The notes beneath the pieces are model-generated. The model was given only the letters and a program-made list of their open reading frames with translations, ran no database searches and was not told the origin of the DNA. 64,000 nucleotides of DNA from Anaerolineae bacterium (GTDB lineage Bacteria > Chloroflexota > Anaerolineae > Aggregatilineales > J027): contig WBUL01000008.1 in NCBI GenBank assembly GCA_008933735.1, forward strand, positions 124,001 to 188,000, read 5' to 3'. The stretch's first letter is position 1, and the number at the start of each line of letters is the position of its first letter. Below, one piece after another: positions 35,969-40,529 of this stretch. A program made the translations under genes and the position numbers.

Positions 35969-36015
35969 CCTCACCTTAAATCTTCTTCATGTCTGGAGGG
36001 GAGTTTAAGGTGAGG
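35969..36015 (+). terminator. Long-stem hairpin after the amino-acid transporter operon
   Basis: CCTCACCTTAAA (35969-35980) and TTTAAGGTGAGG (36004-36015) are a perfect 12-bp inverted repeat with a 23-base loop. It lies just after the aapP stop. There is no immediate T-run, so it could be an mRNA-stabilising end or factor-dependent terminator. Confidence 0.55.
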
Positions 36016-36127: not shown

Positions 36128-37390
36128 ATGGCACTACTCGCTAAAGCTGTCGCTGCTGACCATCAACTGCTGGATGAATCAACAATTCGTGAAACGCTCC
36201 AAGCCGGCTTAGGCGGGCAGTTTCAAAAAGCGCGGGTGCTGGTCCTGATTCCTGACCATACCCGCACCATGCCCTTACCGCAGCTTTTCCGGCTGATGGT
36301 AAATACCCTGCATGATGTTTCCCAACTTGATTTTATGGTGGCACTGGGAACACATCCCCCGCTTACCCATGAGCAACTGCTTCATCTCGTTGGTATCTCG
36401 TATGAAGAGTCCCAGAAAGAATATGCCCATGTTGGGCTGCTCAACCACATCTGGAATGACCCCGAACTGCTGCTCCAACTGGGGGTGCTGCCTCTGGAAC
36501 AGATTCAGACCATTGCAGGTGATAACTGGCATCCCTCTCTGGGAGGCGATGTTCCGGTGCAGATTAACCAGCTTGCCATGACCTATGACCAGATAATCAT
36601 TCTGGGCCCGACCTTTCCACATGAGGTGGTTGGTTTTTCGGGAGGGGCAAAATACCTCTTCCCCGGCATTTCCGGGCCAGAAATGATTAATGTGACTCAC
36701 TGGCTGGGGGCACTGATCACGATTCTGGATACCATCGGCATTGAGAATACCCCTATGCGAGAGATGATCCATGCGGCAGCAGCGATGGTGCGCGTTCCCA
36801 TAACCCTGGTCAGCGTGGTGGTAGAAAAAGTGGGTCTGGCGGGCATGTTTATTGGGGATATGCAGACAGCCTTTCATGAGGCTGTAAAGCTTTCCTCCGC
36901 GCTGCAAATCACCTGGGTGGACGAACCCTTTCAGCAGGTGTTATCATTTGCGCCGCCGATGTATGACGAATTGTGGACCGCGGCCAAGGCCATGTACAAA
37001 CTCGAACCCGCGATAGCTGACGGGGGAGAAGTGATTGTCTATGCGCCGCATCTGGAAAAGGTCAGTGACGTACACGGAAAATTCCTGCACCGAATCGGCT
37101 ATCATGTCCGGGATTATTTCCTCAAACAGTGGGAACAATTTCAGGATGTGCCACTTGGAGTGTTGGCACACAGCACTCACCTCAAGGGAAGCGGCACTTT
37201 TGAAAATGGCATCGAAAACCCACGTATCAAGGTCACACTGGCATCAAAAATGTCTCGTGAGGACTGCGAACGCCTGAATCTGGGTTATCTGGATTACCGC
37301 ACCATAAACCCTGCTGACTGGCAGGGTCGTGAGGGCATGTTGTACGTGCCGAAAGCGGGTGAAATGCTTTACCGTCTGAAGGCCAGGTAG
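36128..37390 (+). CDS. LarA-family nickel-dependent 2-hydroxyacid racemase/epimerase homologue
   Basis: A 420-residue DUF2088/LarA protein. LarA racemises lactate with a nickel-pincer nucleotide (NPN) bound to a lysine. Here the N-domain has IPDHTRTMPL (R46) and ALGTHPPLT, and the second domain HEVVGFSGGAKYLFPG with H165 and K175 and then H191. Spacing of these three (10 and 16) matches the LarA catalytic histidine, NPN-linking lysine and nickel-ligand histidine recalled from L. plantarum LarA (174, 184, 200). So the cofactor site looks intact. The protein is cytoplasmic. It opens a compact operon with an AEC carrier, an FGGY kinase and a nucleotidyltransferase. No NPN-making larB/C/E genes are present here. 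Substrate unknown; an aldonate or malate-like acid is suggested by neighbours. Confidence 0.88.
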   Translation: MALLAKAVAADHQLLDESTIRETLQAGLGGQFQKARVLVLIPDHTRTMPLPQLFRLMVNTLHDVSQLDFMVALGTHPPLTHEQLLHLVGISYEESQKEYAHVGLLNHIWNDPELLLQLGVLPLEQIQTIAGDNWHPSLGGDVPVQINQLAMTYDQIIILGPTFPHEVVGFSGGAKYLFPGISGPEMINVTHWLGALITILDTIGIENTPMREMIHAAAAMVRVPITLVSVVVEKVGLAGMFIGDMQTAFHEAVKLSSALQITWVDEPFQQVLSFAPPMYDELWTAAKAMYKLEPAIADGGEVIVYAPHLEKVSDVHGKFLHRIGYHVRDYFLKQWEQFQDVPLGVLAHSTHLKGSGTFENGIENPRIKVTLASKMSREDCERLNLGYLDYRTINPADWQGREGMLYVPKAGEMLYRLKAR

Positions 37391-37393
37391 GGC

Positions 37394-38308
37394 ATGAGTT
37401 TTGTTCTGGAAGCAGCCGAAGTTTCGCTGAATGTCATCTTACCCATTTTCCTGGTGGTCGGGGTGGCGGCGGCGTTCAGCCGTCACCAACAGCCAGATAC
37501 CAAAATGCTTTCCGGCATGGTCATCTATCTGTTCAACCCCTGTCTGGTCGTAGACAGTCTGATCAAAACAAACATTAGCGGGGAAAAAATCGGCAAGATT
37601 GTCCTGCTGGTGGTTGTTTTGCACCTTATCATGATGGGGGTAGGTTGGACAGTATCGAAAGGGTTAAAGTTCAGCCGTTCACGCGAAAGCGCCTTTATGC
37701 TTTCCGTGATGCTCATTAATGCAGCGAATTATGGCATCCCGTTTAACGAATTCGCTTTTGGGCAGGATGCCCGCCAGATTGCCGTCATCTTCTGGCTGGC
37801 AACCATGATGGTCAATTACACGTTGGGGGTATACGTGGCCTCGCGGGGAAATGTTTCTACCCCACAGGCGCTTCGCAATATCATTACAATACCAACCGGT
37901 TACGCGATGGTGGTAGGTTTTACCCTCAATCTGGCCGATATGAATCTGCCGCTCCCCATTATGCGTGCGGTTAGTTTACTGGCAGATGGGGCGATTCCGG
38001 TCATGCTGGTCATGCTCGGCTTTCAGGTGTCCCATTTGTCACTCCGGGGGAATCCGAAACCGATGCTGATGGCCGCCTGCCTGAGACTATTTATCGGCCC
38101 TCTTGTCGGGCTGATTCTGGTGACGCTGCTTCAACTGGAGGGGTTGACCCGCAACGTCATCATTGTGGAGTCTGCCATGCCCACCGCCGTGATCGCCGGG
38201 GTGCTGGCAACAGAATTCGGCAGCGATTCCGAATTTACCGCTTCGGTCATTCTCCTGAGCACAGTGGCAAGTGTTGTTACGCTGAGTTTTCTGGCAGCCA
38301 TCCTATGA
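37394..38308 (+). CDS. AEC-family (auxin efflux carrier-type) transporter
   Basis: A 304-residue membrane protein with about ten helices in two five-helix halves: N-half VILPIFLVVGVAAAFSRHQQ, C-half AVSLLADGAIPVMLVMLGFQ with the PVMLVMLG motif typical of AEC carriers. AEC proteins in bacteria often carry malate, malonate or related organic acids. It follows the LarA homologue by 3 bases and its stop overlaps the FGGY kinase start (ATGA). The set suggests that it takes up the acid acted on by its neighbours. Confidence 0.87.
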   Translation: MSFVLEAAEVSLNVILPIFLVVGVAAAFSRHQQPDTKMLSGMVIYLFNPCLVVDSLIKTNISGEKIGKIVLLVVVLHLIMMGVGWTVSKGLKFSRSRESAFMLSVMLINAANYGIPFNEFAFGQDARQIAVIFWLATMMVNYTLGVYVASRGNVSTPQALRNIITIPTGYAMVVGFTLNLADMNLPLPIMRAVSLLADGAIPVMLVMLGFQVSHLSLRGNPKPMLMAACLRLFIGPLVGLILVTLLQLEGLTRNVIIVESAMPTAVIAGVLATEFGSDSEFTASVILLSTVASVVTLSFLAAIL

Positions 38309-39756
38309 GTATTCTGGTTCTGGATATTGGCAGTTCGTCAGTGCGGGCCCTGCTTTTTGATGAAAACGCACGGTTGATCCCTGGTGCAGTTGTTTCCCGC
38401 TTGTATGAATTTGAAACTTTGCCGCCTGGTAGTGCCACTTTCCATCCGTTGGATTTGCAAAGACTGACGGAAGCCTGTGTGGACGAGATTTTGCGGCACC
38501 CGGAGGCTGCCCACATTCAAGCGGTAGGGATGGATACCTTTGTTGGCAATATCCTGGGCGTGGGTTTAGCAGGGCAGCCTGTCACGCCTGGCTACAGCTA
38601 TGCCGATACTCGCAGCGCGGATGATGTTGCTTTTCTACGCGGAAAAATCGACCTGGAAGCCGTTCACCAGCGCACCGGATGTATTCACCACACGGCTTAT
38701 CTGCCCGGTCGCCTGCGCTGGCTCCGCCGGACGCAGCCAGATTTGTTTAACCGCGTTGGAAAATGGATTGATTTTGGGGCCTATCTCTACTCGCGGTGGT
38801 TTAGCTCGGTTTCAACAACCTACTCCGTCGCTTCCTGGAGCGGGCTGCTGAACCGCCAGACACTGGCCTGGGACAGCGAATGGCTGGATTTACTGGAAAT
38901 GAAGGTCCAGCAGTTTCCACCTTTGGTCGATTACGACGAATTTGAGCACGGTTTGCGCCCTGATTATGCGGCCCGCTGGCCTGCGCTGAAAAACACGCCA
39001 TTTTATTTGCCCATGGGTGATGGCGCAGCAGCGAATGTGGGTTCAGGCGCGGTGACATCGGCGCATATGGCGCTGACAGTTGGTACCACTGCCGCATTAC
39101 GTATCATCTCTGATGAACAACTCCCACCTGTGCCCACTGGATTGTGGAGCTACCGCGTCAATAAGTCCCTGCATTTAATTGGTGGGGCCACAACCGAGGG
39201 CGGGAATATTTTTAGCTGGGTGCGCGAAACCCTGAACCTCGCTGATTTAACCGCCGCAGAAGCGGACATCGCCAACCGTCCAGCCGATGGTCACGGATTA
39301 ACTTTTCTGCCGCTTCTGGCAGGCGAACGCAGCCCCGGTTGGTCGCTTCATGCCAGCGGCGCGGTGGTGGGGCTGCGACTCAGCACCACATCAACCGATC
39401 TATTACAGGCGGCTTTGGAGGGTGTCGCGCTGCGCCTAGCGCTGATCGCTGAACAACTCCGCCCCATGACAGGCGATAACGTGAATCTGATGGTCAGCGG
39501 CGGCGCGGTGAAAAAATCACGAGTCTGGTCTCAGATTTTTGCAAACGCGCTTAATCAACCGCTTCACCTGCTGGACGAGGCCGAAATTACGGCACGCGGC
39601 ACCGCAGTGATGGTGCTTCATGCGCTGAATGGGGCGGGCTTAGCACAGTTTCCCCCCCAGATTGAAACGACTCTGCTTCCGCAGCCAGCACAGGTCGAAG
39701 CACTGTTCCATGCCCGTCAGCGACAGATCAACTTATACAGGAAATTAATAGGATGA
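38305..39756 (+). CDS. FGGY-family carbohydrate kinase, gluconokinase-like
   Basis: A 483-residue two-domain actin-fold kinase: phosphate-1 motif MSILVLDIGSSSVRALLF, substrate region AVGMDTFVGNILGV, linker motif LGEGRS-like FLPLLAGERSPGWSLHASGA and adenosine motif LMVSGGAVKKSRVWSQIFAN. The family phosphorylates gluconate, glycerol, xylulose and similar. Gluconate or another aldonate is the likely class, from neighbours and sequence style. It is coupled to the carrier before it and the nucleotidyltransferase after it, each by a 4-base ATGA overlap. Confidence 0.88.
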   Translation: MSILVLDIGSSSVRALLFDENARLIPGAVVSRLYEFETLPPGSATFHPLDLQRLTEACVDEILRHPEAAHIQAVGMDTFVGNILGVGLAGQPVTPGYSYADTRSADDVAFLRGKIDLEAVHQRTGCIHHTAYLPGRLRWLRRTQPDLFNRVGKWIDFGAYLYSRWFSSVSTTYSVASWSGLLNRQTLAWDSEWLDLLEMKVQQFPPLVDYDEFEHGLRPDYAARWPALKNTPFYLPMGDGAAANVGSGAVTSAHMALTVGTTAALRIISDEQLPPVPTGLWSYRVNKSLHLIGGATTEGGNIFSWVRETLNLADLTAAEADIANRPADGHGLTFLPLLAGERSPGWSLHASGAVVGLRLSTTSTDLLQAALEGVALRLALIAEQLRPMTGDNVNLMVSGGAVKKSRVWSQIFANALNQPLHLLDEAEITARGTAVMVLHALNGAGLAQFPPQIETTLLPQPAQVEALFHARQRQINLYRKLIG

Positions 39757-40529
39757 AGCCAGAAGCCTATCAAGAATTCACGCAGCATCTGCAAAAAAAT
39801 CTGGAACAAAATGCCCACGTTTTGGGCCTCGTGGCAGTCGGTTCGATGGCAAACACGGATCACCAACCGGACGAGTGGTCGGATCATGATTTTATGGTCA
39901 TTGTGGAAACCGGACAGCAAGAGAGGTTCCGCCAGAGTTTAAACTGGCTGCCCGATGCGGAGAAGATCATTTTTTCTCATCGGGAAACCGAACATGGCCT
40001 GAAGGTGCTGTATGAATATGGGCATCTCATTGAGTTCGCAGTATTTGATAAAAAGGAATTGTATCTTGCACGGGTCAACAGCTACCGTGTGTTATTTTCC
40101 CGCTGGGACATTACACAGGATCTGGAAAAAATCCGCCTTGCTTCTGACAGCGCTCCTCGTGACGATACCTACTATGTGGGACAGTTTCTCGCACACTTAC
40201 AGGTAGGGGTCGGGCGTTTTGCACGTGGTGAAAAACTCAGTGGGCATATTTTTATCAAGCATCATGCCATTGACGATCTGCTTTCGCTGATGGCGAAATA
40301 CCAGCCGGACAAATCGCTTCTGGATAACCTTGATCCTTTCCGCCGCTTTGAATTTGTCCTGCCAGACATCGGCGCGGAACTGAATGCAATGCTGCTGCTC
40401 GAACCGCCCCAGGCCGCTGAAGAGTTGCTCCTGCTGTTTGAACGGGAATTCCAACACCGCCTGTCCGATTACCCGCGTGAGGCGGTGAAGGTCGTTCAGC
40501 ATTATATCCGGTCTATTTATCCCGCGTGA
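39753..40529 (+). CDS. Nucleotidyltransferase-domain protein
   Basis: A 258-residue protein with the Pol-beta-type nucleotidyltransferase signature GSMANTDHQPDEWSDHDF, in which the GS and D-x-D carry the metal, and a likely third carboxylate in HLIEFAVFD. The C-terminal half is helical (RFARGEKLSGHIFIKHHAID). It resembles aminoglycoside or lincosamide adenylyltransferase-like proteins of unknown substrate. The gene is fully coupled to the FGGY kinase, so a role in the same pathway or in self-protection is possible. The last 17 bases overlap the convergent MalG-like gene. Resistance is not supported by the sequence alone. Confidence 0.75.
   Translation: MKPEAYQEFTQHLQKNLEQNAHVLGLVAVGSMANTDHQPDEWSDHDFMVIVETGQQERFRQSLNWLPDAEKIIFSHRETEHGLKVLYEYGHLIEFAVFDKKELYLARVNSYRVLFSRWDITQDLEKIRLASDSAPRDDTYYVGQFLAHLQVGVGRFARGEKLSGHIFIKHHAIDDLLSLMAKYQPDKSLLDNLDPFRRFEFVLPDIGAELNAMLLLEPPQAAEELLLLFEREFQHRLSDYPREAVKVVQHYIRSIYPA

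Follow-up and report, generated by a model that had tools for sequence, protein, structure and literature searches.

A probable hexonate operon with a GntE-branch LarA homologue in an Anaerolineae genome without recognised LarB, LarC and LarE

Described gluconate epimerases and the operon in the window

In Thermotoga, hexuronate is degraded through fructuronate, mannonate and gluconate to 6-phosphogluconate, a route in which GntE takes part (PMC3750489, PMC7583248). D-gluconate 2-epimerase activity was shown for GntE2/LarAH20 of Thermotoga maritima (PDB 4NAR), and the signature of the GntE enzymes (groups 18-20) consists of an E-V or E-S loop after the second catalytic His and a Trp in alpha-11 (PMC7583248). 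Genomes with larBCE but without larA were noted before (PMC11796402); in the literature searched, with the founding papers of 2014 and 2012 outside its scope, the reverse case of LarA without larBCE was not mentioned.

Four co-directional ORFs on the + strand were identified at 36128-40529 by an ORF check of the window, which is the whole 64-kb stretch of DNA analysed (Table 1). The LarA and AEC genes are separated by 3 bases (37391-37393), and one ATGA overlap joins each of the AEC/FGGY and FGGY/nucleotidyltransferase pairs, in agreement with the arrangement given in the first-pass annotation. Among the LarA loci compared, the complete four-gene unit was seen in the window only. An FGGY kinase gene also adjoined the LarA gene in L006, L013 and L119 of the same LarA clade and in L138 and L147 of the sister clade, and neither an AEC nor a nucleotidyltransferase gene adjoined LarA at any other locus compared. 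A 12-bp perfect inverted repeat without a T-run (CCTCACCTTAAA at 35969-35980 and TTTAAGGTGAGG at 36004-36015 of the window) was observed in the interval that separates larA from the ABC gene upstream of it, and may be an operator or a terminator.

Table 1. Genes of the putative hexonate operon in the window
Feature	Position	Strand	Length	Basis
LarA homologue, GntE branch	36128-37390	+	420 aa	Pfam Lar_N, 4nar match, conserved residues
AEC-family (PF03547) secondary carrier	37394-38308	+	304 aa	Pfam Mem_trans, operon position
FGGY kinase, probable gluconokinase	38305-39756	+	483 aa	TIGR01314 and 3gbt best matches
ANT(6)/LinB-like nucleotidyltransferase, probable passenger	39753-40529	+	258 aa	motif, predicted fold

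The LarA superfamily domain Lar_N was found in the first protein at 73 bits (Pfam cut-off 23.3). The best NCBIfam model was NPN_18_hexonate (LarAH18, "putative hexonate epimerase", NF052594), which aligned over residues 13-393 and gave 180.8 bits; this is far under the equivalog cut-off of 500 and counts against an exact assignment. PDB 4nar was the closest solved relative by sequence (E=3e-53) and also the top fold match of the AlphaFold model (pLDDT 88.5, TM 0.86), with a full-length alignment at about 29% identity, whereas the NPN-loaded LarA holoenzyme structures were matched with TM of about 0.7. The NPN-binding and catalytic residues and the Glu of the specificity loop are shared with GntE2, the loop being E-V in the window protein and E-S in GntE2.

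The first-pass annotation had placed K175, H191 and H165 as in LarA, and D43, R46, H76 and K287 complete the site, in which R46, K175 and H191 would bind NPN and D43, H76, H165 and K287 would be catalytic. All seven were exactly invariant in an alignment of 36 sequences, and conservation of the LarA-site residues exceeded 93% in each of two groups (73 sequences in total, including 50 clade members). The GntE signature is conserved as E166-V167 after the second catalytic His and W283 in alpha-11. A347-H348 is conserved as well, its match to the A-then-H of GntE alpha-14 (LarA W358/T359) depending on an assumed register. The single-histidine type of LarA (PMC12611868) was ruled out because H165 is present. 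Judged by its sequence, the protein is a member of the GntE (gluconate-2-epimerase) branch and probably a D-mannonate/D-gluconate C2-epimerase.

In the kinase, FGGY_N and FGGY_C were found at 105 and 91 bits, both over the Pfam cut-offs. The gluconokinase model TIGR01314 scored highest of all NCBIfam models, although its 205 bits stay under the equivalog cut-off of 648, and the best PDB match was 3gbt, a "gluconate kinase" (E=1e-53). The enzyme, which occupies the position held mostly by GntK in the operons of relatives, is probably a gluconokinase. Mem_trans was matched in the AEC carrier at 98 bits (Pfam cut-off 25.7), and a hexonate may be what it moves, to which it is linked by operon position only.

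Neighbourhoods of relatives and the proposed route

A total of 35 loci came from one scan of genome contigs and 40 more regions from two class-wide searches. Around the clade members, D-mannonate oxidoreductase, glucuronate isomerase UxaC, UxaE, GntK and 6-phosphogluconate dehydrogenase (Gnd) were found, together with a LacI regulator and a PPi-type phosphofructokinase; neighbours were identified by models over their cut-offs, and UxaE by Pfam. When five gene types were counted, with gluconokinase scored as GntK or FGGY, at least one pathway gene lay near LarA in 36 of the 49 clade loci and at least two in 26, with none in the other 13. Mannonate oxidoreductase was observed at 27 of these loci, Gnd at 17, GntK or FGGY at 17, UxaC at 12 and UxaE at 3. 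Around the other LarAs of the same genome set no pathway neighbour was found (0/20 loci). Gnd, UxaE, mannonate oxidoreductase and gluconokinase are neighbours of GntE2 too (PMC3750489). Within the 64-kb window UxaC, mannonate oxidoreductase and Gnd were absent, and the kinase is the only hexuronate-route gene there. In one sub-branch (L008, L014, L016, L018-L020 and L022-L024) the mannonate/gluconate operon is extended by the PPi-type phosphofructokinase, joined in most cases by a HAD-family protein.

It is fairly likely that the four genes form a hexonate catabolic operon with a C2-epimerase, an FGGY gluconokinase and a passenger nucleotidyltransferase, for which NPN does not come from LarB, LarC and LarE. 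A hexonate would be carried across the membrane by the AEC protein, D-mannonate and D-gluconate would be interconverted at C2 through hydride transfer by the LarA homologue, as its branch, residues and neighbours suggest, and the kinase would supply 6-phosphogluconate to the pentose phosphate pathway. We infer the assignment of the Thermotoga steps to these genes, with the operon corresponding to the part of the Thermotoga-type hexuronate route that GntE and GntK carry out, and an FGGY gluconokinase replacing GntK. The first-pass annotation had proposed inversion of an aldonate at C2 followed by phosphorylation by the FGGY kinase; the neighbours in relatives point the same way and specify D-mannonate and D-gluconate with a gluconokinase. 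Its further suggestion of an undescribed aldonate route was not borne out: the route was already described for Thermotoga (PMC7583248, PMC3750489) and is therefore not new, and the operon probably belongs to this known type of pathway, with an FGGY kinase as its variant feature.

Another sugar acid, such as an aldarate or an L-aldonate, might be the natural substrate, with the kinase acting on a different product. The very high KM of GntE1 of C. glutamicum for mannonate (PMC7583248) and the lack of uronate genes at the window locus would fit such a substrate, but the genes that recur near the clade members, those for mannonate oxidoreductase, gluconokinase and Gnd, speak for the hexonate reading, and we regard the other substrate as unlikely. 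A functional part for the nucleotidyltransferase, for example in cofactor activation as LarC does with CTP, is far less probable, to the point of being very doubtful. Its gene overlaps the kinase gene by ATGA, and cytidylylation of the cofactor precursor was reported for LarC (PMC11796402), but the nucleotidyltransferase gene adjoins no other LarA. In five members of the same family or order, homologues of 46-51% identity were found away from LarA, AEC and FGGY, and of the 19 clade genomes without larC in the class set, 10 have no homologue. A role in the pathway was rejected on this ground, and the gene is probably a passenger in the operon, because the copies of relatives lie away from LarA. 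The first-pass annotation had left the gene without an obvious place.

For the nucleotidyltransferase itself, Adenyl_transf was matched at 19.4 bits, under the Pfam cut-off of 22, and a GS...SDxDF motif was conserved in 17 homologues. The motif is shared with ANT(6)/LinB, and ANT(6)-Ib and LinB were the best fold matches of its model (pLDDT 90.4); in contrast, the identity to them was 13-15% and the TM below 0.4, which possibly reflects domain orientation. No evidence for an antibiotic-resistance role was obtained from this comparison.

Cofactor supply in the clade

To our knowledge, LarB, LarC and LarE are the only way to NPN. In the source genome no match over the cut-off was found for any of the three, and a second LarC model gave no match either; the assembly is 81.5% complete, so that the absence from this single genome is weak by itself. 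Through the loci 28 genomes were reached, of which 27 contain clade members and one, from a Planctomycete, contains a LarA of the sister type. LarB, LarC and LarE were absent from 25 of them, among which are the named Thermaceae strains Meiothermus granaticius NBRC 107808 and Calidithermus roseus NBRC 110900, and all three were present together in the remaining three (G009, G016 and G026). The weak LarE matches inspected were NadE-like and AsnB-like by sequence motifs, and one weak LarB match was PurE-like. LarC was detected in Thermotoga maritima, which served as search control, but almost never in the clade. In the class (298 genomes), it was found in 129 of the 205 genomes where any LarA was matched, in 21 of the 93 others, and in none of the 19 with the window clade.

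The first-pass annotation had held that a genome without NPN-synthesis genes would speak against the epimerase. These genes are indeed missing within the 81.5%-complete assembly, but the epimerase reading was kept; the absence is a puzzle of cofactor supply rather than a refutation, because it is nearly clade-wide while the active site and operon context are retained.

In a quick maximum-likelihood tree, 50 sequences formed one clade (SH-aLRT 100) on a stem of 0.6 changes per site; of the 46 with known status, larC was absent from 42 and present in 4. Among the larC-bearing ones, three (G009, G120 and G231) have further LarAs for which LarC may be required, while G016 has no other LarA. Of the larC-less clade genomes, 12 have a further LarA; its NPN motif was read intact in 10 of them, and for the other two, G272 and G192, a portion of the searched NPN pattern was missing. 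The second LarA of the source genome (G000:C24:46654-47916; L186:7655-8917) was assigned to the LarAH5 malate racemase model (529 bits, cut-off 462) and is likewise without larBCE. The 448-aa ORF before it gave no Pfam match.

It is on balance probable that this clade of LarA-type epimerases, found in Chloroflexota and Thermaceae, works without LarB, LarC and LarE, either through a second cofactor route or import, or by having escaped the need. NPN or a close analogue would most likely still be used, because the full nickel-pincer site is kept, and would come from an unrecognised pathway or from uptake. That the clade is instead NPN-independent and epimerises hexonate with the same residues and another cofactor or a bound metal is improbable. 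The long and fully supported stem, the lack of larC in 42 of the 46 clade genomes of known status, and the clade member being the only LarA match found in 11 of the 19 class genomes that contain the clade would agree with NPN-independence. However, the residues R46, K175, H191 and K287 and the two catalytic His are kept, with just nine modest clade-specific differences, and the further LarAs of larC-less clade genomes, mostly with the NPN motif intact, such as LarAH5 in the source genome, argue for another NPN supply rather than NPN-independence of this clade alone. Less likely still is that larBCE are present and were missed through assembly gaps or divergence. One larBCE cluster could plausibly have been lost to a gap in the 81.5%-complete assembly, but among the genomes of the class with a completeness of at least 90%, none of the 18 with the clade had LarC, versus 51 of the 69 with the sister clade (Fisher p=5e-9, uncorrected for kinship and too small because the species are related). 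The sides of this comparison were set by score to the window protein, so that G120 and G231, which carry LarC and fall inside the clade by tree, were counted on the other side for their lower score. The two LarC models agree, the three genes always occur together (3 of 28 genomes), and the two named Thermaceae strains without larBCE are not labelled as MAGs, all of which also speaks for real absence.

What stands out is that a GntE-type LarA clade persists without the known cofactor pathway. With a conserved NPN site and a conserved catabolic operon but no larBCE, the clade raises the question whether the cofactor is made by another route or taken up, or whether LarA chemistry can proceed without NPN, and this could be tested directly in cultured members of the Thermaceae, for example Meiothermus granaticius.

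Neighbour clustering around the clade and the other LarAs was searched for a replacement of larBCE, and no recurrent candidate besides the pathway genes was obtained. At L025:9263-9676 the gene after larA encodes a phosphoribosyltransferase-like protein of 136 aa (PF00156), and equivalents are present in L028-L030 and L033. In L025 and L028-L030 this gene separates larA from gntK, and the genes overlap. It is confined to Thermaceae and might be considered a candidate there, since NPN is a nucleotide.

Four other LarAs of larC-less Chloroflexota (L192:6075-7247, L200, L201 and L202) lie near a galactarate/altronate dehydratase-like gene, which suggests further sugar-acid LarAs. Two clade LarAs, G158:C11:106490-107725 and G308:C33:28644-29048, contain in-frame stops (TGA, TAA), and these copies are possibly pseudogenes or assembly errors.
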